From Bacillota bacterium (lineage in GTDB: Bacteria > Bacillota > SHA-98 > UBA4971): a DNA stretch of 56,639 nt. The number at the start of each line of letters is the position of its first letter. Position 1 is the first letter of the stretch. The stretch is taken from assembly GCA_012516125.1 (NCBI GenBank), contig JAAYXB010000091.1, positions 1 to 56,639 on the forward strand, given 5' to 3'. Below the pieces are notes generated by a model. That model was not told where the DNA came from. It made no database searches and saw nothing but the letters and a program-made list of their open reading frames with translations. Positions 5,851-52,777 of the stretch are shown piece after piece. Both the position numbers and the translations under genes were made by a program.

Positions 5851-5901
5851 TGCACAGATCGTGTGCATCCGCAAGCCGAACGGGTGCACAAGAAATGTGC
5901 A
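5851..5901 (+). promoter_or_regulatory. Twin upstream activator sites TGCACA-N5-TGTGCA
   Basis: Two identical inverted repeats, TGCACA-GATCG-TGTGCA (5851-5867) and TGCACA-AGAAA-TGTGCA (5885-5901), have starts 34 bases apart (about three helical turns). They lie 130-180 bases upstream of the sigma-54 promoter, the usual place for a Fis-type enhancer-binding activator. The activator encoded at 13908-15524 is the natural candidate. Confidence 0.75.
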
Positions 5902-6032
5902 GGCGACGCGCGGGTCGCGCCCGGGAACGTCTCTTGCGTGCGGCGGCACCGCCTCGGTCTTACGGCCGTTTGCCGGGGAAGCCTGGAGTTTGCGGGGACC
6001 CCGCGGCACGCTCGTTGCCCTGAGCGGTGCTC

Positions 6033-6049
6033 TGGCACGGGACTTGCGA
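6033..6049 (+). promoter_or_regulatory. Sigma-54 (-24/-12) promoter
   Basis: TGGCACG at 6033-6039, four bases, then TTGCGA at 6044-6049. This matches the consensus TGGCACG-N4-TTGC exactly. It drives rightward into the sugar-transporter operon, whose last gene encodes an activator with the sigma-54-contacting GAFTGA loop. Confidence 0.88.
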
Positions 6050-6236
6050 CGATCCTAGGGCGAAAAGACCGTTGCGCAACGGCCACAAGGGAGGGCCCGC
6101 AGGAATCAAGCGTGACGCGGGAGGTATCAAGTCGAAGGCACCGAGCGGGAGGCATCGAGTCGTAGGCGTCGAGCGGGAAACAAAGAGGCAACGAGGCCAG
6201 TCAGGCAACCAACAGCGAAAAGGAGGTCCATCACAG

Positions 6237-7148
6237 ATGAGACGCTGGCTTTCGGTGATCGTGCTGGCGGTCATGGTTGTCGGTCTCATGGGCGTGCAGG
6301 AGGCGTTCGCGGCCACGAAGCTGATCGGGGTCACGCTCCTCACAAGAGAGCACCAGTTCTACAGAGACCTCGAGGCCGGGCTTCGCAGCGAGGCCGCGAA
6401 GCACGGGTTCGAGCTACAGGTGGTGGCGGGTGAATTCGACTTCGGGAAGCAGGCGGCACAGATCGACGACTTCATCTCCAAGAAGGTTGACGCCCTCATC
6501 ATCGCACCGTGCGACTCGCTCGCCGTCGGCAGCTCCATCGCAGAGGCGAACAAGGCAGGCATACCGGTCTTCACCGTCGATATCATGAACCTGTCCCCCC
6601 AGGGCAAGGTCGTGTGTGCGGTGCAGTCTGACAACGTCGAGGGCGGCCGTCAGGCGGGCAGGCTCATGGCCCAGGCCCTCAAGGGCAAGGGCGGCAAGGT
6701 GGTCATAATCAACCACCCGGGCGTGACATCGGTGCTCGACAGGGTTGAAGGTTTCCGCGAGATCATCGCTCAGCATCCGGAAATCAAGATAATCGCGGAC
6801 GTCCCGGCGTGGGGTCAGCGTGACAGGGCGATGGCCGCGATGGAGGACATCCTCCTCAGGGTGCCAGACGTTGCGGGCGTGTTCGGCATCAACGATGACT
6901 CGGCGCTCGGCGCGGTCGCGGCCATCGAGGCCGCGGGCAAGCTGGGCAAGATCGTGGTCGTCGGCTACGACGCAACGCCCGAGGCAAAGGACGCCATCAA
7001 GGCCGGAAAGATCTACGGTGACGCGATCCAGTATCCGACCCTGATAGGAGTGAAGGCGATCCAGGCGATAGCGGACTACTTCGCCGGCAAGAAGGTCCCA
7101 GAGAAGATCAACGTCGAGGTCGGCGTGTGGACGAAGGACAGCAAGTAG
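6237..7148 (+). CDS. Sugar ABC transporter substrate-binding protein (RbsB-like)
   Basis: A 303-residue exported protein. Residues 1-25 form a signal peptide (basic start, hydrophobic core, EAFA cut site). The rest is a two-lobed type I periplasmic binding fold (PF13407), with IIAPCDS, TVDI, SDNVEGGR, GINDDSALGA and VVGYDATPEA in the positions seen in ribose-binding proteins. ATG 6237 follows AGGAGGT by nine bases. It is first in the operon after the sigma-54 promoter and is very similar to the second binding protein at 12848. The substrate is probably a sugar, identity unknown. Confidence 0.92.
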   Translation: MRRWLSVIVLAVMVVGLMGVQEAFAATKLIGVTLLTREHQFYRDLEAGLRSEAAKHGFELQVVAGEFDFGKQAAQIDDFISKKVDALIIAPCDSLAVGSSIAEANKAGIPVFTVDIMNLSPQGKVVCAVQSDNVEGGRQAGRLMAQALKGKGGKVVIINHPGVTSVLDRVEGFREIIAQHPEIKIIADVPAWGQRDRAMAAMEDILLRVPDVAGVFGINDDSALGAVAAIEAAGKLGKIVVVGYDATPEAKDAIKAGKIYGDAIQYPTLIGVKAIQAIADYFAGKKVPEKINVEVGVWTKDSK

Positions 7149-7325: not shown

Positions 7326-7403
7326 GGTTCCCGCCGGTCGACCGGAGGACCCGGGCGAGACCGATAGCCGCCCGGGGCAATAGTGAAAAGGGGAGGGTTC
7401 CAT

Positions 7404-9131
7404 ATGCCTGGGGAGGCGCACGACCGGGCCGGGCACGCCGGATACGCTCGGCATACCGGGCGTACTGGTCACGACGCGCGTGATGCACATGACGGCCACG
7501 ACGGTCTGGTGGCGTCGGCCGACCCGGCGGGGCATGCAGAGCAGGTCGGGGACATGGAGCCCGGAGGGCCGGCCACAGGGACCAACCAGGCACCACACGC
7601 CGTGGGCGCAGGCGAAGTAGGCCGCGCAGCATACCTCCTCGAGATGCGCAACATCACCAAGGACTTTCCGGGAGTCAGGGCCCTCGACAACGTCAGCTTC
7701 ACGCTGGCTCCCGGGGAGGTCCACGCCCTCGCGGGCGAGAACGGCGCGGGGAAGTCCACGCTCATCAAGATACTCGCCGGCGCTGAGCGGATGACCTCAG
7801 GGGAGATATTCCTCGGTGGCAGCAGGGTGGACATAACAGGTCCTCTTCACGCGAAGAAGCTCGGCATAAGCGTAATCTACCAGGAGTTTGACCTCATCCC
7901 GTTCCTGTCGGTCGCGGAGAACATCCTCCTCGGGCGCGAGCCGCGAAAAGGCGCGTTCATCGATTGGCCCGCGCTTTACGCGCAGGCAGGCGAGGCGCTC
8001 AGGAGGCTTGGCATAGACCTGGACCTCCGGGCCGTCGTGAACGACCTCAGCGTTGCCCAGAAGCAGATGACGGAGATCGCGAAGGCAGTGTCCACCGACG
8101 CTCGTATTATCGTCATGGACGAACCCTCCGCTACGCTCACCCTTCGGGAGCAGGCGCACCTTTTCGACCTTGTGCGGACGCTGAAGAAGCAGGGGGTCGC
8201 CATCATCTACATCTCTCACCGGCTCGAGGAGCTCTTCGAGATAGCGGACCGCGTGACCGTGCTTCGCGACGGCAGGCGGGTCATGACCGCGCCTGTCAGC
8301 GAGGTCACGAGGGAGCAACTCGTAAAGCACATGGTCGGGCGCGAGCTTACCGGTGACTATCCGAGGAGGACCCACCCGCCCGGAAAGGAGATCCTCAGTG
8401 TGCGGGATCTTTCGAGGCGCGGAGTTGTCCACGATGTGAGTTTCTCGCTGCGTGAGGGCGAGGTGCTCGGCATCACGGGTCTTGTCGGATCCGGCCGGAC
8501 TGAGATCGCCCGCGCGATCTTCGGGGCAGACCCGGCGGATGCCGGGGAGATACGCCTCGCTGGCGAGCGGCTTCACATCAGGGACCCGCGTGCGGCCATC
8601 CGCGCTGGGATCAGCCTTGCAACGGAGGACCGCAAGGAGCAGGGCCTGGTCCTCATAATGAGCGTCCGCGAGAACGTAACCCTCGCAAACCTGCGTACCC
8701 TCGCAAAGCGCGGGTTCGTGAACAGAAGGCGCGAGAACACCGAGGCGTCGCGGCTCGTTCAGTCGCTTGCCATCAAGACCGCGGGTCTCGAGCAGAAGGT
8801 GCAGAACCTGAGCGGCGGCAACCAGCAAAAGGTGGTCCTGGCGAAGTGGCTTTTCACCAACTCGAAGGTAGTGATATTCGACGAGCCCACGCGCGGCATA
8901 GATGTCGGGGCGAAGCAGGAGATATACCGGCTTATGAACGATCTTGCCGAACAGGGCGTCGGGATAATCATGATCTCGTCTGAGCTTCCGGAGGTCCTCG
9001 GGATGAGCGATCGCATCCTTGTGATCCATGAGGGCAGAGTGCGTGCCGAGCTAACCCGGGACGAGGCCACGCAGGAGAAGATCATGAGTTACGCTATGGG
9101 CGGCCCGGTGGCCCCACCGCAAGCCGGGTGA
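7404..9131 (+). CDS. Sugar ABC transporter ATP-binding protein with tandem ATPase domains (RbsA-like)
   Basis: A 575-residue protein with two fused nucleotide-binding domains. Domain 1 has GENGAGKST, a degenerate signature LSVAQKQ and Walker B IIVMDEPSA. Domain 2 has a divergent Walker A (LVGSGRTE), signature LSGGNQQK and Walker B VVIFDEPTRG. This is the RbsA/MglA class that energises CUT2 sugar importers. The first about 75 residues, before the normal start LLEMRNITKDF, form an unusual His/Asp/Gly-rich extension. GGGGAGGG seven bases before ATG 7404 supports translation of that extension, and the internal ATG 7644 has no ribosome site. Confidence 0.92.
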   Translation: MPGEAHDRAGHAGYARHTGRTGHDARDAHDGHDGLVASADPAGHAEQVGDMEPGGPATGTNQAPHAVGAGEVGRAAYLLEMRNITKDFPGVRALDNVSFTLAPGEVHALAGENGAGKSTLIKILAGAERMTSGEIFLGGSRVDITGPLHAKKLGISVIYQEFDLIPFLSVAENILLGREPRKGAFIDWPALYAQAGEALRRLGIDLDLRAVVNDLSVAQKQMTEIAKAVSTDARIIVMDEPSATLTLREQAHLFDLVRTLKKQGVAIIYISHRLEELFEIADRVTVLRDGRRVMTAPVSEVTREQLVKHMVGRELTGDYPRRTHPPGKEILSVRDLSRRGVVHDVSFSLREGEVLGITGLVGSGRTEIARAIFGADPADAGEIRLAGERLHIRDPRAAIRAGISLATEDRKEQGLVLIMSVRENVTLANLRTLAKRGFVNRRRENTEASRLVQSLAIKTAGLEQKVQNLSGGNQQKVVLAKWLFTNSKVVIFDEPTRGIDVGAKQEIYRLMNDLAEQGVGIIMISSELPEVLGMSDRILVIHEGRVRAELTRDEATQEKIMSYAMGGPVAPPQAG

Positions 9132-9287: not shown

Positions 9288-10385
9288 ATGTGGGACTCGC
9301 GTAAGAACCTGGCTCAGGTGGCGCCCGCGGGGGTGGTCGCGGCCGGCGGTCCCGGTAGTGATGGCGGCGCGGGCGCAAGCGCTGCCGTGGCACGGCGTAG
9401 AAGTGGCCTGGGCGCGAGGCTTGGCCGCCTCTTTGAGGATTACGGGATGGCGCTCGTCTTCGCCGGGATATGCGTCCTTTTCACCATCTGGACGAAGGGG
9501 CTTTTCATCAGGCCCGACAATATCGTGAACGTGCTGCGGCAGATCTCGATCAACGCGTGCATCGCCACAGGCATGACGTTCGTGATAATCACCGGCGGCG
9601 TGGACCTCTCCGTGGGGTCGGTCCTCGCGGTGGTCGGGATTGTCACCGCGAAGCTTCTCACAAGGTTGCCGGGGCTTATGCCGGTCCTCCCGGCGATCAT
9701 CCTGTCGTGCCTCGTCGGGCTCATGATGGGTGGGGTTATGGGATCGGTCAATGGCTTCACCATAACGCGGTTTCGAGTTCCGCCGTTCGTGTCCACCCTC
9801 GCGATGATGACAGCCGCCCGGGGGGTTGCGTTTCTCCTCTCCGACGGGCGCCCGGTCTGGAACCTGCCGCTGCAGTTCAACTTCATCGGTCGAGGTTACG
9901 TCCTCGACAAGGTGTTCGGACCGTGGGTCCCGATGCCGGTGGTCATCATGGTCGTGGTCATGGCCACAGCGCACGTCATCCTCACCCGCACCCAGATCGG
10001 CCGCTACGTCTACGCGGTGGGAGGCAACGAGGAAGCGGCGAGGCTGTCAGGTATAAACGTCGCGCGGGTGAAGATGTTCGCGTATAGCCTGAGCGGCGTG
10101 ACGGCGGCTCTCGGCGGCATCATCCTCATATCGCGCCTGGCCTCGGGCCAGCCGGGAGCGGGGGAGTCGTACGAGCTCTATGCCATCGCCGCCACGGTCC
10201 TGGGCGGTACGTCCATGTCGGGCGGCAAGGGCACCATGGTCGGCACGGCCATAGGCGCTCTCATAATGGGGGTTCTCAATAACGGCCTGAACCTGGCGGG
10301 AGTGGAATCGTACAGCCAGAACGTCATCCTTGGCGCGGTCATCCTGGGGGCCGTGCTCATCGATAGACTGAGGAAGGGCGCGTAG
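9288..10385 (+). CDS. Sugar ABC transporter permease (RbsC-like)
   Basis: A 365-residue integral membrane protein of the BPD_transp_2 family. After a Gly/Ala-rich cytoplasmic N-terminus of about 45 residues there are eight to ten transmembrane segments. Family landmarks are GGVDLSVGSV, the ATPase-contact loop AVGGNEEAARLSGIN and VLGGTSMSGGKG. ATG 9288 has AAGGAGGG nine bases upstream. It forms the pore with the preceding ATPase and the binding protein(s) on either side. Confidence 0.93.
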   Translation: MWDSRKNLAQVAPAGVVAAGGPGSDGGAGASAAVARRRSGLGARLGRLFEDYGMALVFAGICVLFTIWTKGLFIRPDNIVNVLRQISINACIATGMTFVIITGGVDLSVGSVLAVVGIVTAKLLTRLPGLMPVLPAIILSCLVGLMMGGVMGSVNGFTITRFRVPPFVSTLAMMTAARGVAFLLSDGRPVWNLPLQFNFIGRGYVLDKVFGPWVPMPVVIMVVVMATAHVILTRTQIGRYVYAVGGNEEAARLSGINVARVKMFAYSLSGVTAALGGIILISRLASGQPGAGESYELYAIAATVLGGTSMSGGKGTMVGTAIGALIMGVLNNGLNLAGVESYSQNVILGAVILGAVLIDRLRKGA

Positions 10386-10593: not shown

Positions 10594-12765
10594 GTGATGA
10601 AGCCGCTCCGCGTAAAGGCGCTGCCCGGCGCCATCAGCCTGCAGGCGAGGATCATCCTGTACCTTGTCCCGCTCCTCGCGGTGCTCATTTCCGCCGTGAC
10701 AATGCTCGGCATGGGCATGATCAGGCGGGGAATCATCCAGCAGATGCAGCGCGACGGGGTGGCCCTCGCGCGTTCCTACGCCCTGAGCGCCGAGAACGCC
10801 ATTATTCTTGGCTCAGGGCTTGGCCGCGTCACGGGAGAGGCTTCGCGCTCGAGCGGGGTCCGGTATCTCAAGATCGTGGACGACAGGGGTGTGGTCATCG
10901 CTCACACCGACGTGTCGGCCATCGGAAAGCACGACGTGGACCCATGGGTCGAGGAAGCCCTCGCGGGCCCCATCACCGCCGTGCAGGTGGGGAGCAAGCC
11001 GATATCCGGGATGAGCCGCGCCGAGGGCGACATCGGCGGGGACCAGGTCTTCAGGGTAGTAGTGCCCCTGGTCGTGCTGGACTCGGTGGTTGGGGCGCTC
11101 GATCTCGGCCTCGATACCGCTGGCGTGCTTGAGGCCCTGGGGCGGTCCGCCCGTCAGTCGCTCGCCGTCGCCGCGGTGGGCCTCGTGTTCGGTGCCCTCT
11201 ATGCCTGGTTTTTCGCGCGCGTCTTCACGCGGCCCATAGGCCGGCTCGCGCACGCGGCAGACATGATCGCCGGAGGCGACCTCGACCAGGAGGTGGCGCT
11301 CGACTCCGAGGACGAGATCGGGAGGCTTGCCTTCTCGTTCAATCGCATGGCGCGTAGTCTCAAAGAGTACATGGGAAACCTGCGACGGGCGAACGCCGAG
11401 ATCGAGGCCCGCGCGGAGACCATCCAGAAACTCATGTGCTACACAGAGGATATCCTCGCGAACATTCCCGCGGGCGTGATCACCGTGGACCTCGACGGCA
11501 AGGTGACCGTGGCAAACGGCGCGGCCCGAAGGCTTCTGGCGGGAGCTGCCGGGGCAACCGGAGCCACCGGAGCCACCGGAGCCACTGGGGGCACCGGGGG
11601 CACCGGGGGTACGGGAGCCGCCGGAGCTACCGGGAGCGCCGAGGCTACAGGGGTCATCGGGACCGCCGTTGCCGCCGGGCATGGCGGGGATGCGGGCGCC
11701 TCGCAGCCCGTGGGAATGGCGCCCGGCTCCGACGGCGGCCCGGCCGGCTACGAGCCTGGCATCACTCACATCACTCCCATCATAGGCACGCACTACCGCA
11801 AAGCTTTCGGGGCGACTCCCGCGATCGTAGCCCTCATCGACGATGCGCTCTCGCACGGGCGCACCAGGCGCGGTTGTGAGACCACCGTGCCCATCAGTGG
11901 CGCTTCCGCGACTCTTGTGGCCAGCAGCAGCGTGCTCCTGGACAGAAACCAGCAGCCCCTTGGTGTTGCCGTCACCTTCGAGGACGTGACGGAGTTGCGG
12001 GAGCTGCAGCGGCAGGTCCACGAGGCCGCCAAGCTCGCGGCGGTGGGTGAGCTTTCGGCAGGCCTCGCGCACGAGGTCCGTAACCCGCTCGGGGCGATAA
12101 AGGCGTGTTCGCAATTCCTGGAGGACCGCGTCCCGGGGGATGAGTCCCTCAGGCGGTTCACGAGGATACTCGTGCGGGAGGTTGATAGGCTGGACCAGCT
12201 GGTGGAGAGGCTTCTCGGGTTCGCGCGGCCAAGGGAGAGCGACATGCAGTACGTCGACATCCACGAGGTGCTCGACCGGATGGTGTCGCTCGTGGGTTTG
12301 AAGGCAAAACAGGCCAGGGTGGAGGTCGTGCGGCGGTACGAGCCCGACCTGCCCAGGGTATTCGCAGATCCCGAGAAGCTCCAGCAGGCATTCCTCAATA
12401 TCATGCTAAACGCCATCGACGCCATGCCCCAGGGCGGAGTCCTTGCGGTAGCCACGGCTGCTTGCTGTGGGCCAGAGTCGGCCGCAGGCAGCAGGGTCAG
12501 AATCGACTTCCGTGACACGGGGGTCGGCATACCCCCGGACCAGCTTGACAAGGTCTTCACGCCGTTCTTCACCACAAGGGAGCGGGGAACGGGGCTCGGC
12601 CTTGCCATCGCGCGGCGGGTTGTGTCGGAGCACGGCGGGGAGATAACCGTCGAGAGCGAGCCCGGGGTCGGGACGGCGTTTTCCATTTTTCTGCCTGTTG
12701 CCCGGGGGACGCCCCTCGACATGGGACCCGCTGCGACCGAGGCTGCTCCGGAGGACATGACGTGA
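10594..12765 (+). CDS. Membrane sensor histidine kinase
   Basis: A 723-residue kinase. Layout: transmembrane helix about 19-40, extracytoplasmic sensor about 45-190 (Cache-like), second transmembrane helix about 190-212, HAMP about 213-265, coiled coil, PAS-like domain about 285-465, HisKA with phosphoacceptor H493 (GLAHEVRNPLG), and HATPase with DTGVGIP and GTGLGLAI. The PAS region is interrupted by a collagen-like Gly-Ala-Thr tract (about 310-355). It lies between the permease and a second binding protein and is followed by a response regulator, so it probably senses the transported sugar directly or through that binding protein. GTG 10594 and ATG 10597 are both plausible starts. Confidence 0.92.
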   Translation: MMKPLRVKALPGAISLQARIILYLVPLLAVLISAVTMLGMGMIRRGIIQQMQRDGVALARSYALSAENAIILGSGLGRVTGEASRSSGVRYLKIVDDRGVVIAHTDVSAIGKHDVDPWVEEALAGPITAVQVGSKPISGMSRAEGDIGGDQVFRVVVPLVVLDSVVGALDLGLDTAGVLEALGRSARQSLAVAAVGLVFGALYAWFFARVFTRPIGRLAHAADMIAGGDLDQEVALDSEDEIGRLAFSFNRMARSLKEYMGNLRRANAEIEARAETIQKLMCYTEDILANIPAGVITVDLDGKVTVANGAARRLLAGAAGATGATGATGATGGTGGTGGTGAAGATGSAEATGVIGTAVAAGHGGDAGASQPVGMAPGSDGGPAGYEPGITHITPIIGTHYRKAFGATPAIVALIDDALSHGRTRRGCETTVPISGASATLVASSSVLLDRNQQPLGVAVTFEDVTELRELQRQVHEAAKLAAVGELSAGLAHEVRNPLGAIKACSQFLEDRVPGDESLRRFTRILVREVDRLDQLVERLLGFARPRESDMQYVDIHEVLDRMVSLVGLKAKQARVEVVRRYEPDLPRVFADPEKLQQAFLNIMLNAIDAMPQGGVLAVATAACCGPESAAGSRVRIDFRDTGVGIPPDQLDKVFTPFFTTRERGTGLGLAIARRVVSEHGGEITVESEPGVGTAFSIFLPVARGTPLDMGPAATEAAPEDMT

Positions 12766-12847: not shown

Positions 12848-13801
12848 ATGGTGCGGAGAAGGCACGGATGGAGTCGTATTCTGGTTCTCCTGACCGATCT
12901 TGCAGTCATGGCCGTCCTTGTTGCAGGCACGGGCGCGCTCGCGGCAGCGCCTGCTCCTGCGAAGCGCCGGATAGCGGCATCTCTCCTCACGAGCAAGCAC
13001 GGGTTCTACCAGGAACTCGAGGACGGCCTTGTTGCCGAGGGGCGCAAGTACGGATTCGAGCTGGACATCACATACGCCGAGTTCGACGCGGCGAAGCAGG
13101 CCCGCCAGATCGAAGATCTCATCGCCAGAAAGCCCGATGCTCTCATCATCTCCCCATGCGACTCGACCGCCATTGGCGAGAGTATCGTAAAGGCCAATAA
13201 GGCCTCGATACCTGTCTTCACCGTCGATATTGCGAACCGATCCGGATACGGGAGCGTGGTCTCGCATATCGCGTCGGACAACTTCGAGGGGGGCCGGCTT
13301 GCCGGGCAGCTCATGGCAAAGGCCCTCGGCGGAACGGGCAAGGTCATCATCATAAACCATCCCAGCATCACCTCGGTGATGGACCGGGTGAGCGGGTTTC
13401 GCGAGTATCTCGAGCAGTACCCGGGGATCCAGATCGTCGCGGACATCCCGGCATGGGGACAGAGAAGCCGGGCGACCGCCATCATGGAGGATGTCCTCAT
13501 GATGATGCCGTATATCGACGGCGTCTTTGGCATAAACGACGACTCGGCGCTCGGAGCGCTCCAGGCCATCGAGGCGGCGAGGGTGAAGCGGCGTATCGTG
13601 GTGGTGGGCTACGACGGCACCCCGGAGGCGGTGAAGGCCATCCGGGCGTCGAAGATATACGGGGATGTGGTCCAGTACCCCAGACAGATAGGAGTGCTGG
13701 CTATCCAGGCGATCCGCGACCATTTCAACGGGCTGCCCGTGAAGCCTTACATTGCCGTGGGAGTGGGGATTGTCACCGCGGATAGCCTCGGCGGCCCGTG
13801 A
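12848..13801 (+). CDS. Second RbsB-like binding protein, candidate sensor partner
   Basis: A 317-residue exported type I binding protein with a signal peptide ending near residue 35 (GALAAAP). It shares almost every motif with the binding protein at 6237: IISPCDST, TVDIANR, SDNFEGGR, PAWGQR, GINDDSALGAL and VVGYDGTPEA. It is therefore a paralogue from duplication. Its position between kinase and response regulator, rather than with the transporter genes, suggests a role in signalling, as LuxP- or ChvE-like proteins have for their kinases. It could also be a second receptor for the same permease. ATG 12848 follows GGGGGAGGAG. Confidence 0.9.
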   Translation: MVRRRHGWSRILVLLTDLAVMAVLVAGTGALAAAPAPAKRRIAASLLTSKHGFYQELEDGLVAEGRKYGFELDITYAEFDAAKQARQIEDLIARKPDALIISPCDSTAIGESIVKANKASIPVFTVDIANRSGYGSVVSHIASDNFEGGRLAGQLMAKALGGTGKVIIINHPSITSVMDRVSGFREYLEQYPGIQIVADIPAWGQRSRATAIMEDVLMMMPYIDGVFGINDDSALGALQAIEAARVKRRIVVVGYDGTPEAVKAIRASKIYGDVVQYPRQIGVLAIQAIRDHFNGLPVKPYIAVGVGIVTADSLGGP

Positions 13802-13907
13802 GGCGGTACCCTTTGGGGCTGTGCGGGGCTGCGCAGGACAAGACAGGGCATGCAGGCGACCCGGAAAGGGCAGGCTCAGGCTGGTCTTGGTTTCGGAGGC
13901 GAAGGGC

Positions 13908-15524
13908 TTGAGAGACGAGAGGGACACAAGAAGCGCGACTTCTATCCTGGTGGTGGACGATGATGAGGGCATCCGGGAGACGCTCGAGGCCGTGCTCTCA
14001 GAGGAGGGCTACCAGGTGGCCGCGACGGGCACGGGCCGCGGGGCGCTAGAGCTTGCGCGCGGGCGCGAGTTTCACCTGGTCCTTCTGGATCTCAGAATGC
14101 CGGACATGAGCGGACTCGAGATCCTGCCACGCATGCGGAGCGAGCTGCCGCGCGCTCCGATCATCATCATGACGGCGTACGGGACGATCAAGACGGCCGT
14201 CGAGGCAGTGAAGCAGGGGGCCTACGATTTCGTCTCAAAGCCCTTCGACCTTGATGAGATGCGCATCACCATAGAGAAGGCCCTGGCCCACGAGCGCCTC
14301 AAGATGGAGAACGAGCGCCTGCGGACCATGCTGGAGGACGAGCTCGTGTTCCAGGAAATCGTCGGCCGGAGCAGCAAGATGCGAGCGGTGTTCGAGCTCA
14401 TCAGGAAGGTCATGAACCATGACGTTACCGTTCTCATCGTCGGGGAGAGCGGGACGGGGAAGGAGCTCGTGGCGAGGGCGATCCACTACAACAGCCCGCG
14501 CCGCGCCGGCCCGTTCCTGAAGCTGAATTGCGCCGCACTGCCTGACGCGCTGCTTGAAAGCGAGCTGTTCGGTTACGAGAAGGGGGCTTTCACCGGGGCC
14601 CAGGTGCGAAAGCCAGGCCGCTTCGAGCTCGCCGACGGCGGCACGCTCTTCCTGGACGAGATCGGCAACATGAGCCCATCGATGCAGGTCAAGCTCCTGC
14701 GCGTCCTGCAAGAGAAGGAGTTCGAGCGGGTCGGCGGCAAGGGCACCGTCAAGGTGGACGTCCGAATACTCGCAGCGACGAACTCGAATCTCAAGTCCGA
14801 GGTGGCGAAGGGTACCTTCCGGGAGGACCTATACTACCGGCTCAACGTCGTTCAGATCCACGTGCCGCCGCTTCGGGAGCGCAAGGAGGACATCCCCCTC
14901 CTGGTGCAGCACTTCATCAAGGAATTCAACGTGTCCCTCGGGAAGGAGTTCGCTGGCGTCTCGCCGCAGGCCATGAACCATCTTGCGCGCTACGACTGGC
15001 CGGGCAACGTGCGGGAACTCAAGAACGCCATCGAGGCCGCTATGCTTCTCGGGGAGGGGCCGTTTATCATGCCTGAGCATCTGCCCGAGGAAGTGACGGA
15101 CGGCGCGGCAGCGGCGCGAGCGGCGCTTGGGTCGGCGGCACCTGATGGTTCTGGAGTCGCAAGCCGTGCTTCTGGCTCCGGGTTCTGCCCTGATCTTCCG
15201 CCTGCTTCGGGTTCCGGTGCCAGTGTTACTCCGGGCTCTTCGTCCGCCTCCGCCTCCGCCTCCGCTTCCGCCTCCGCCTGTGCCTCTGTCTTTGCTCCTG
15301 CTCCTGCCCCTGCCCCTGCTCCTGCTCCTGTTTCTGCTTCTGCCACCATCCCAGCCGATCCTTCGGCAAACGCGCCCCTTGAGGCGGTGGAGCGCGAGCA
15401 CATTCTTCGCGTGTTGAGGCAGTGCTCGTGGAACCAGTCCAAGGCTGCGTGGGTGCTCGGTGTGCACCGCAATACGCTTCGCAAGAAGATAAAGGAATAC
15501 GACCTCGAGAGGGCGAAAACCTGA
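13908..15524 (+). CDS. NtrC-family sigma-54-dependent response regulator
   Basis: A 538-residue activator. The receiver domain has the acidic pair D17/D18, phosphoacceptor D61 (LLDLRMPD) and SKPFD. The AAA+ domain has Walker A GESGTGKE, the sigma-54 contact loop GAFTGA and Walker B LFLDEIG. The C-terminal Fis-type helix-turn-helix (NQSKAAWVLGVHRNTLRKKI) should bind enhancer sites. Between AAA+ and Fis is a long Ser/Ala/Pro-rich low-complexity linker. TTG 13908 is chosen because GGAGG lies eight bases upstream and the receiver begins directly after it. With the kinase upstream and the sigma-54 promoter at 6033, it most likely activates this operon. Confidence 0.92.
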   Translation: MRDERDTRSATSILVVDDDEGIRETLEAVLSEEGYQVAATGTGRGALELARGREFHLVLLDLRMPDMSGLEILPRMRSELPRAPIIIMTAYGTIKTAVEAVKQGAYDFVSKPFDLDEMRITIEKALAHERLKMENERLRTMLEDELVFQEIVGRSSKMRAVFELIRKVMNHDVTVLIVGESGTGKELVARAIHYNSPRRAGPFLKLNCAALPDALLESELFGYEKGAFTGAQVRKPGRFELADGGTLFLDEIGNMSPSMQVKLLRVLQEKEFERVGGKGTVKVDVRILAATNSNLKSEVAKGTFREDLYYRLNVVQIHVPPLRERKEDIPLLVQHFIKEFNVSLGKEFAGVSPQAMNHLARYDWPGNVRELKNAIEAAMLLGEGPFIMPEHLPEEVTDGAAAARAALGSAAPDGSGVASRASGSGFCPDLPPASGSGASVTPGSSSASASASASASACASVFAPAPAPAPAPAPVSASATIPADPSANAPLEAVEREHILRVLRQCSWNQSKAAWVLGVHRNTLRKKIKEYDLERAKT

Positions 15525-15730
15525 GGCGTGCTGAGAGGCGTGGAGGTGCCGGAGAGGTGCGAGTTTGACGAAAACCCCCTGACTGCGCCGGGAGCAGGGA
15601 TCGTCTCGTTCTGGTGGAAGGAAACCTCTCCGTGATGGCGAATATCAGATACGTGCGCTGCGGATGGGCTTCGGGAGCGGGCGATGTGCCCACGAGCCGC
15701 GGCCAGTCCTTAAGGGGAGGGTAAACGGGT

Positions 15731-16774
15731 ATGGCTGTGTTCAGAAAGTCGGGAATGGTATGGGGCGTTGCGTTATTGTTCGTGCTCGTCTTGGCGGTTG
15801 GGGTGTCAACAGGCGTCGCCGCTCCGAAGGCGAGGGTTGCGGTAGTGTTCGCCACCGGAGGCCTCGGGGACAAGTCCTTCAACGATTCAGGTTTTGCGGG
15901 GCTGAAACGCGCGGAGAAGGAGCTCGGCATCGAGTCTCAGTACGCTGAGCCGCAGCAGATAGCCGAGTATGAGACGCTTCTCACGCAGTTCGCACAGACG
16001 AGGAAGTATGACCTTATTGTATCCATCGGTTTTGACCAGGCTGACGCTTTGAAGGTGGTTTCTGCGAAGTTCCCGAACCAGAAGTTCGCCATCATCGATA
16101 CGGTGGTTGATGCCCCGAACGTCGCTTCATATGTGTATAAGGAACAGGAGCGCGGTTTCGTGCTCGGCGTCATCGCTGGCCTCATGACCACGAAGACCGG
16201 TGACCCGCGCATCAACCCAGAGAAGGTTATAGGCGTAGTAGGCGGAATGGATATCCCGCTCATCAACGCCAACATCGCCGGGTACATGGCTGGCGCCAAG
16301 TACGTGAACCCCGATGTCGAGGTGCTATATTCGTACGTGGGCGCTTGGGCCGACCCTGCCAAGGGGAAGGAACTCACGCTGGTGCAGTTCAACCAGGGAG
16401 CCGACATCGTGTGGCAGGCCGCGGGTAGGTCGGGCCTGGGTGTTATCAAGGCGGCAGAGGAAACGAACCACTATGCCATCGGCGCCGACTCCGACCAGTG
16501 TTATCTTGCGCCTAAGAACGTGTTGACCAATGGGATGAAGTTTGTTGACAATACGATCTACACCGCAATTGAGCAGGTCATCTCCGGCAAGTTTAAGGGC
16601 GGCATCCACGTGCTGGGGCTGGCCGAGAAAGGTCTCGGGTACACCACAAGCCTGGTGCCAGCGGATATCGTCGCGAAGGTGGACGCCCTCGCCCAAAAGG
16701 TGATATCGGGTGAGCTGGCCATCCCTGACAAGATACAGGACGTGGAGGCGTGGCTGAAGGCGCATAAGAAGTAG
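15731..16774 (+). CDS. BMP-family substrate-binding protein (PnrA/TmpC-like)
   Basis: A 347-residue exported protein with a signal peptide of about 30 residues (cut near GVAA) and no lipobox Cys. The mature part begins ARVAVVFATGGLGDKSFND, the hallmark of the basic membrane protein family (PF02608), with GFDQAD, DTVV and GADSDQ further on. Characterised relatives bind purine nucleosides. ATG 15731 follows GGGGAGGG. It is the first gene of an operon with an ATPase and two permeases. There is no sigma-54 box or purine riboswitch in the 206 bases upstream, so its control differs from that of the preceding operon. Confidence 0.92.
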   Translation: MAVFRKSGMVWGVALLFVLVLAVGVSTGVAAPKARVAVVFATGGLGDKSFNDSGFAGLKRAEKELGIESQYAEPQQIAEYETLLTQFAQTRKYDLIVSIGFDQADALKVVSAKFPNQKFAIIDTVVDAPNVASYVYKEQERGFVLGVIAGLMTTKTGDPRINPEKVIGVVGGMDIPLINANIAGYMAGAKYVNPDVEVLYSYVGAWADPAKGKELTLVQFNQGADIVWQAAGRSGLGVIKAAEETNHYAIGADSDQCYLAPKNVLTNGMKFVDNTIYTAIEQVISGKFKGGIHVLGLAEKGLGYTTSLVPADIVAKVDALAQKVISGELAIPDKIQDVEAWLKAHKK

Positions 16775-16939
16775 TGGGCGAACGGAGAAGCGGCGCGCGA
16801 ACGAGCGTCGCAGCGTGGAAGCGTCGAAGCCGGGAAAACGGCGGCCAAGAGAGCGCTGGTAGTCGTGAAAACCGACACCCACTCGAGGGACGGCGCCGGG
16901 AGCACCGGGAGCAGAAAAGGGAAAGCAGAAAAGGCGGAT

Positions 16940-16968
16940 GCGGGGCAGGGAGGCTTTCCCTGCCCCGC
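16940..16968 (+). other. Perfect GC-rich hairpin upstream of the ATPase gene
   Basis: An 11-bp perfect stem, GCGGGGCAGGG (16940-16950) with CCCTGCCCCGC (16958-16968), and a seven-base loop. No U-run follows. It sits between the binding-protein and ATPase genes, the same position as the hairpin at 7294 in the other transporter operon. Confidence 0.6.
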
Positions 16969-17004
16969 TATCGGAATTGGAATCGGAGTGAGGTTTGTCG
17001 CGCC

Positions 17005-18552
17005 ATGTGGGCTGTGCGGATGGAGAAGATCACCAAGCGCTTTGGTCCGGTGGTGGCCAACGATGCCGTGGATTTCGAGGTCGCGCCGGCGGAGATCCAC
17101 TGCTTGCTGGGGGAGAACGGCGCAGGCAAAACCACGCTCATGAGGATCCTGTTCGGACTCTATCGCAAGGACGCCGGCGAGATCTACGTGGACGGCAAGC
17201 CCGTGTCGTTCTCCGGTCCCAGGGACGCCATCGCGCACGGGATCGGCATGGTGCACCAGCATTTCATGCTGGCGGGCAGGCTCACCGTCACCGAGAACAT
17301 TGTGGCGGGCGCAGAGCCGCGCAGGGGCGTGCTGCTCGACTACGCGAAGGCCAGGGAGATGGTGCGCGAGGTCTCGGAGCGTTACGGGCTCAAAGTGGAC
17401 CCTGACGCCCATGTGGAGAGCATCTCCGTGGGCCAGCAGCAAAGGGTGGAGATCTTGAAAGCCCTGCTTCGCGGCGCAAAGGTGCTGATCCTGGATGAGC
17501 CGACGGCCGTTCTCGCGCCGCAGGAGGTTGGGGACCTGTTCGACATCATGCGCAGGCTCAAGGAAGGCGGCACGACCATCATCTTCATAACCCACAAGCT
17601 CAAGGAGACCGCGGCGATATCCGACCGTGTAACGGTGCTGCGCGATGGCAGGCGGGTGGCGACGATGAACACCGCCGATGCAAGCCCGGCGGACCTGGCG
17701 GAGCTCATGGTCGGAAGGCAGATCGTCCCGCCAGCCCGAAAGGGCCACAGCCCCGATGGCAAGGTGGTGCTGGAGCTTCAGAATGTGTCCGTGCGGGGCG
17801 GCCTGGGTGCGGGCGCACGCACGGGGGGCGCAGGGGGCAAAGCCAGGCTGAACAACGTCAGCCTGCAGGTGCGAAGCGGCGAGATCCTGGGCATAGCGGG
17901 GGTGGAGGGGAACGGCCAGCTTGAGCTGGAGGAGGTCATCGTCGGGCTGCGGAAACCGACCTCAGGCCGGGTCCTGCTGAACGGACGCGACATCACTCGC
18001 CTCGGGCCGAGGGGTATCCGCGACATGGGCGTCGCCTGCATCCCGTCCGACCGGCTGAGGCGCGGGATAGTGGACTCGTTCAGCGTCGCCCAGAACCTCA
18101 TCCTCGGCGAGCAGACATCAGCGCCGTTTGCTGCAAGCGGCATCCTGCAACCTCGGAAGATAGTCGAGCACGCCGCGAAGATCGTCAACATGTTCGACGT
18201 GAGGACCGCTTCCCTCGATCAGCCGGTGGGGTCGCTTTCAGGCGGAAACCAGCAGAAGCTGGTGGTCGGGCGCGAGCTTTCGCGCGGTCCCAACCTCATC
18301 GTGGCCGCCCAGCCCACGAGGGGGCTCGACATCGGGGCGACCGACTACATACACCGGCAGCTTCTGGCAATGAGGGAACAGGGCAAGGCGATCCTGCTTA
18401 TAAGCGCCGAGCTGGACGAGGTCAGAGCTCTCTCGGATCGCATCGCTGTCATGTATGAAGGTCAGATCGTTGCTCTGAGGCCGGCCGAGGAGTTTACTGA
18501 AAGGGATCTGGGTCTTCTGATGGCGGGGCAAGGGGTCGGTGTGGCGTCATGA
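17005..18552 (+). CDS. Nucleoside-type ABC transporter ATP-binding protein (NupO/YufO-like)
   Basis: A 515-residue tandem ATPase. The first domain is complete (GENGAGKTT, LSVGQQQR, LILDEPTAVL). The second has a divergent Walker A (VEGNGQLE), LSGGNQQK and an altered Walker B ending LIVAAQPTRGLD, normal for this subfamily, in which Asp-Glu is replaced. ATG 17005 is preferred: the domain begins at once, and the longer upstream frame is low in complexity. The TGA stop overlaps the permease start (ATGA). Confidence 0.92.
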   Translation: MWAVRMEKITKRFGPVVANDAVDFEVAPAEIHCLLGENGAGKTTLMRILFGLYRKDAGEIYVDGKPVSFSGPRDAIAHGIGMVHQHFMLAGRLTVTENIVAGAEPRRGVLLDYAKAREMVREVSERYGLKVDPDAHVESISVGQQQRVEILKALLRGAKVLILDEPTAVLAPQEVGDLFDIMRRLKEGGTTIIFITHKLKETAAISDRVTVLRDGRRVATMNTADASPADLAELMVGRQIVPPARKGHSPDGKVVLELQNVSVRGGLGAGARTGGAGGKARLNNVSLQVRSGEILGIAGVEGNGQLELEEVIVGLRKPTSGRVLLNGRDITRLGPRGIRDMGVACIPSDRLRRGIVDSFSVAQNLILGEQTSAPFAASGILQPRKIVEHAAKIVNMFDVRTASLDQPVGSLSGGNQQKLVVGRELSRGPNLIVAAQPTRGLDIGATDYIHRQLLAMREQGKAILLISAELDEVRALSDRIAVMYEGQIVALRPAEEFTERDLGLLMAGQGVGVAS

Positions 18553-52591: not shown

Positions 52592-52777
52592 GGTGAGGTA
52601 GAGGCGCGGCGCGCCATGAGTAGGCATTCGGAGAAGGGCATCTCTGAAGGATGCCGAAAGGGGCCGCCGCCGAAGTCCCGCGCCCGGCCAGGGGCACGGG
52701 GCTGGGCCTGCACCTAAGAGGTGCAGGACTGTCACCGGACGCCTTTCCCTTGAGCGCCCGGTGGAGCGCTATCTCAC
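52592..52777 (+). ncRNA. Lysine riboswitch (L-box) aptamer
   Basis: The core matches the lysine riboswitch: AGGTAGAGGCGCG at the start, GAGTAGG, GGAGAAGGGCATCT, CCGAAAGGGGCCGC, CGCCGAAG, GGGCTGGGC, CTGTCACCGG and GGAGCGCTATCTCAC at the end. P1 pairs 52593-52601 with 52769-52777 (one G-U). P4 is CCTGCACC...GGTGCAGG and P5 is ACCGG...CCGGT. An upstream segment TCACCTC (52571-52577) can instead pair with GAGGTGA (52590-52596), overlapping P1. GAAG-N3-CTTC with six Ts (52784-52800) follows as a possible terminator tail. The next gene is pckA. Confidence 0.94.

Follow-up and report, generated by a model that had tools for sequence, protein, structure and literature searches.

Genes of the importer and sensor set

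The window, a 56,639-nt stretch of DNA, corresponds to contig C81 from the genome of a Bacillota bacterium (G000; 3.24 Mb) and carries on its forward strand an operon whose genes follow the order SBP1, ATPase, permease, kinase, SBP2 and activator. Domain searches identified SBP1 (6237–7148) as an RbsB-type sugar-binding protein (Peripla_BP_4) and the third gene (9288–10385) as a CUT2-type permease (BPD_transp_2), and the CUT2-type ATPase between them contains two ABC domains (7554–9131; its exact start is uncertain, the open reading frame opening at 7383). This combination of binding protein, double-ABC ATPase and permease defines a CUT2 sugar ABC importer, whose components scored under the NCBIfam cut-offs for the ribose importer RbsABC (RbsB, 174 vs 337 bits; RbsA, 576 vs 745 bits; ribose permease, 293 vs 398 bits). 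The genes neighbouring distant SBP1 relatives were mostly unrelated and offered no clue to the substrate. The sole possible hint, perhaps towards a mannose-type sugar, came from a related locus (L061), where a GH38 alpha-mannosidase gene (13554–18065) follows that of the permease after 32 bp. SBP1 (gene at 6237) and SBP2 (gene at 12848) both bear signal peptides in which no lipobox is obvious. Most binding proteins of Gram-positive bacteria differ in this respect, and the feature may hint at a two-membrane cell envelope.

Downstream of the permease, a domain search revealed a membrane sensor histidine kinase resembling AtoS, ZraS and NtrB (10594–12765), composed of an extracytoplasmic region with a weak sCache_3_2 match, followed by HAMP, PAS, HisKA and HATPase domains; low-complexity Gly-Ala-Thr repeats occur within the PAS region. 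The structure of the sensor region predicted from a two-sequence alignment reached a pLDDT of only 38 and was set aside, so that the assignment of its fold draws on the weak Pfam match, which lies below the cut-off. Searching the phylum with a profile of the sensor region returned matches in 162 of 398 genomes, most of them covering the HAMP part alone, and strong, near-full-length matches were few (G000, G009, G011, G182, G234, which corresponds to locus L062, and a paralogue group).

The last gene of the operon (13908–15524) had been annotated initially as a GAFTGA-containing Fis-type activator, and its domains and motifs proved intact: a receiver with the phospho-Asp, an AAA+ domain with Walker motifs and GAFTGA, and a Fis-type HTH, all of them conserved in relatives. 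Its TTG start at 13908 lines up with an ATG in locus L060, and an Ala/Ser/Pro repeat linker, variable between relatives, precedes the HTH. As the protein scored below the cut-offs for NtrC (NR-I; TIGR01818, 481.5 vs 558.6 bits; PRK10923, 402.6 vs 620 bits) and AtoC (NF008469, 521 vs 714 bits), it was classified only as an NtrC-class response-regulator activator. Receiver domains are found in only 44 of 431 sigma-54 activators of Clostridiales (PMC6615313).

Between kinase and activator lies SBP2 (approximately 12848–13801), the proposed co-sensor and a paralogue of SBP1, with which it shares 59.5% identity. The two proteins formed sister clades (tree support 99/97) with longer branches for SBP2, in a tree whose relatives were gathered with SBP1 patterns; this may have left SBP2-like proteins from elsewhere underrepresented, and fuller sampling could alter the sister relationship. 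All nine proteins compared were identical at the ten positions that align with the presumed ribose pocket of Escherichia coli RbsB, the alignment being ambiguous at R90. SBP2 thus appears to have arisen together with SBP1 by duplication, and it is predicted to have kept the same pocket.

The order kinase–SBP2–activator was maintained in all five lineages seen, namely the window, L059, L060, L062 and the pair L061/L165. In this last pair the three genes come first, followed by the promoter and then by the transporter genes, and the SBP2 gene is apparently split between L061 (at approximately 8072) and L165, from genome G182 (reverse strand, at approximately 10501). The split ends carry TGT and ACA, with a GATTC repeat on both sides, and the two loci probably flank a single Mu-like prophage insertion. 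The sensor set is therefore mobile relative to the transporter, which argues that SBP2 belongs to signalling. Encoding a second binding protein with a kinase and a regulator, as this operon does, is the arrangement of binding-protein-dependent three-component sensors. The initial annotation had proposed a two-component activator: kinase and activator do reside in the operon, but SBP2 was overlooked, and the sensor is likely to be three-component.

The upstream region and its conservation

The sequence TGGCACGGGACTTGC (6033–6047, forward strand) matches the sigma-54 consensus TGGCACG-N4-TTGC without mismatch, as originally reported, with GG at −24 and GC at −12, and the rpoN gene, whose presence had been left for verification, is encoded in the same genome. 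Counting from the GC at −13/−12, transcription is predicted to start at approximately 6059. The exact box occurs once in the whole window and eight times in the 3.24 Mb genome, compared with about 2.6 copies expected from the dinucleotide content of the window, and boxes with one mismatch were no commoner in the genome than a reversed control pattern. Because of these frequencies, the box by itself is weaker evidence than the paired palindromes or the conservation described below. A near-box with one mismatch at 6004–6018, 29 bp upstream of TGGCACGGGACTTGC, was rejected as a second promoter, not being conserved. Within the 5′ untranslated region, imperfect 14-nt tandem repeats at 6117–6172 are shared only in part with relatives.

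Two exact TGCACA-N5-TGTGCA palindromes, both predicted enhancers, precede the box: a distal copy, TGCACAGATCGTGTGCA (5851–5867), centred at about −200, and a proximal copy, TGCACAAGAAATGTGCA (5885–5901), centred at about −166. They had been described as identical and 34 bases apart, which holds for the arms and for the distance from start to start (34 bp), but the central 5 bp differ. The genome scan suggested earlier was run and found no further exact copy in the 3.24 Mb, against an expectation of 0.14 copies; for two exact palindromes no more than 100 bp apart, chance predicts about 6e-7 occurrences per genome. A wider regulon was rejected, the rest of the genome containing five one-mismatch sites (two for the reversed control) and none that was exact. 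When 13 genomes belonging to the order were compared, the exact palindrome occurred four times, always at this operon, and the reversed control pattern gave no match. The operon itself is present in three of the 13 genomes, to which the exact palindrome is confined.

In an alignment of the upstream regions of these genus members (the window, G009 and G011), both palindromes, their 34-bp step and the box were kept, and the DNA between and after them was altered by substitutions and indels. The proximal palindrome had one base changed at each end in G009 and one base changed in total in G011. This pattern of conservation offers the strongest evidence for a putative sigma-54 regulatory region. 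Similar elements were recovered further afield in L061, a more distant Bacillota MAG whose SBP1 is 75% identical to that of the window: two sites of the TGCACA-N5-TGTGCA type, one with a single mismatch, are spaced 32 bp apart, and the box TGGCAATAGTCTTGC lies directly before SBP1. A less favourable case is L062, the most distant of the relatives that possess the whole gene set: its palindrome is weak (TGCACACCGGCCATGCA, two mismatches), and the intergenic region containing it also serves a divergent activator gene. The box, the twin palindromes and their spacing are thus confirmed as real features of the sequence.

Just downstream of the predicted start lies a perfect 14-bp palindrome, CCGTTGCGCAACGG (6069–6082), which the three genus members share without a single change although indels occur around it. 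Even with one mismatch allowed, the genome contains no second copy, and the palindrome was not seen in the upstream regions of L061 and L062. Its interpretation as an RNA hairpin was rejected, since RNA folding was no better than that of shuffled sequences; it may represent a second operator.

The paralogous system and alternative explanations

The NtrC consensus box, TGCACCAnnnTGGTGCA, is a 17-bp TGCACC-N5-GGTGCA palindrome (PMC8743547), often found in tandem, and the twin sites of the operon fit its geometry but differ from it in the inner base pair. A related system in the same genome (L122, contig C74) encodes a kinase whose sensor half is 36% identical to that of the operon's kinase, and an activator that shares 60% identity and a closely similar HTH with the operon's activator; an Fbp-like ABC importer follows. 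Before this importer (L122, 10385–10536), GGCACCAGAATGGTGCT and TGCACCAGAATGGTGCA are spaced 21 bp apart and accompanied by the box TGGCACAAGACATGC. The second site agrees with the NtrC consensus, so that the paralogous system displays TGCACC-N5-GGTGCA exactly. The site pair and box recur in G009 and G012, with a related arrangement in G092. None of the other activator loci checked (L123–L132) combined a TGCAC palindrome with an adjacent exact box. The L122 paralogue adjoins twin TGCACC-N5-GGTGCA sites and a box, which lends support to an assignment of sites of this kind to this branch of activators. The two sister activators seem to act through paired palindromes distinguished by a single base pair in each arm, a contrast that makes enhancer specificity directly testable. 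From the paralogous system and the co-occurrence of site and operon, the operon's own activator probably binds 5851–5901. Elsewhere in the window, a palindrome of the NtrC/paralogue pattern, TGCACCTAAGAGGTGCA (52709–52725), is located about 36 bp before an open reading frame at 52761 resembling PEP carboxykinase.

Chance matches in GC-rich DNA can be given almost no credence as the origin of the palindromes and box. One-mismatch boxes are indeed as frequent in the genome as the reversed control, and the additional near-box at 6004–6018 is not conserved, but exact paired sites are expected very rarely and keep their position in two other genomes, a conservation that already disfavours this explanation. 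It also appears improbable that the palindromes serve another NtrC-family activator, whether that of the paralogous system or a global regulator of nitrogen, and thereby couple sugar import to a different signal. The genome encodes 12 full-length sigma-54 activators and the 6-5-6 geometry equals that of the NtrC box (PMC8743547), whereas the inner base pair is unlike that of the NtrC and paralogue boxes, the exact palindrome is absent elsewhere in the genome and co-occurs with the operon across the order, and G012 and G008 possess the paralogue kinase without the exact palindrome.

Somewhat doubtful, though more credible than either of these, is plain two-component control, in which the kinase would sense the sugar directly and SBP2 would simply supply this importer with another binding protein for transport. 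The weak single-Cache match in the extracytoplasmic region of the kinase would suit direct sensing, and pocket residues shared with SBP1 are equally fitting for transport; against this, SBP2 sits between kinase and activator in five of five lineages, even where the transporter lies on the other side, and evolves faster than SBP1. The remaining alternative concerns 6069–6082 and is compatible with the three-component reading, alongside which it can hold: as a repressor operator, this palindrome would create a promoter needing both activation and derepression. The proposal is tentative. Conservation of CCGTTGCGCAACGG in the three genus members, the nine LacI-family regulators encoded in the genome and the poor RNA folding speak for it; its single copy in the genome, its absence from the L061 and L062 upstream regions and the lack of any recognised repressor gene in the operon speak against it.

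Proposed circuit and known systems

The explanation we favour, with a probability of roughly 75%, is a sigma-54 operon that encodes a CUT2-type importer with its own sensor set of kinase, SBP2 and activator, forming a three-component positive loop. The promoter at 6033–6047 would drive SBP1, ATPase, permease, kinase, SBP2 and activator as one operon. Sugar-loaded SBP2, predicted to contact the kinase, would stimulate it, perhaps together with sugar bound directly by the kinase, and the kinase would in turn phosphorylate the activator. The phosphorylated activator would then bind the twin TGCACA-N5-TGTGCA sites at about −200 and −166, assemble there, and contact the sigma-54 polymerase through DNA looping, with the GAFTGA ATPase opening the promoter. 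If the signal runs in this direction, the external sugar, whatever its identity, would raise importer and sensor together.

Sigma-54 control of a CUT2 importer by an activator of the same operon had been proposed in the initial annotation; conservation, the genome-wide uniqueness of the sites and the paralogous system now support it well, although the proposal overlooked SBP2 and the palindrome at 6069–6082. The closed circuit put forward with it is sound as logic, with two qualifications: a different promoter may give the sensor genes a basal level of expression, and binding by the activator is inferred. An evolutionary account appears to us evenly balanced, according to which the transport binding protein was duplicated within the operon and the copy became a dedicated kinase sensor firing the sigma-54 activator, with CCGTTGCGCAACGG perhaps providing another input.

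The carbohydrate transporters reported to be under sigma-54 control in Bacillota are phosphotransferase systems, MFS permeases and a gluconate symporter (PMC12316311). Twin-enhancer sigma-54 promoters, importers of the CUT2 type and kinases assisted by a binding protein are each known, and their combination looks new: the portion of the literature searched contained no example of a CUT2 importer under sigma-54 control for which a duplicated binding protein acts as co-sensor. The earlier description of the arrangement as uncommon fits this literature, within its incomplete coverage. If true, such an importer, sensing its sugar through a duplicated binding protein, would unite two regulatory designs that are usually apart.

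AauR is an NtrC-type sigma-54 activator, and XylFII-LytS-YesN and AraPST have the same layout as CuaDSR, in which a second binding protein acts with a kinase and a regulator on a sugar importer. In Ruminiclostridium cellulolyticum, CuaDSR resembles the present system in that a second binding protein, kinase and regulator control an adjoining sugar ABC importer, which has its own binding protein, like the SBP1 system here; CuaR, however, is of the YesN/AraC type rather than a sigma-54 activator, and CuaD is a larger, 410-residue lipoprotein, unlike SBP2 (PMC10384115). AatJ-AauS-AauR of Pseudomonas likewise comprises a binding protein, kinase and regulator that act on an ABC importer through an inverted-repeat site, but responds to amino acids, uses a single binding protein for transport and sensing, and has the site TTCGG-N4-CCGAA (PMC7386598). 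NtrC-type enhancers share the tandem 17-bp 6-5-6 palindromes upstream of a −24/−12 promoter, whereas here the inner pair is A-T instead of C-G, the regulator would be local instead of global, and the target is a sugar importer (PMC8743547). LuxP-LuxQ-LuxU-LuxO of Vibrio similarly leads from a sensor like ribose-binding protein through a kinase to a sigma-54 response regulator, but serves quorum sensing through a phosphorelay in which the kinase becomes a phosphatase in response to the ligand, and its output is small RNAs rather than an importer, without a duplicated transport protein (PMC524169). An importer-derived three-component sigma-54 switch, if true, would represent a layout like that of LuxPQ-LuxO put to the service of nutrient uptake.
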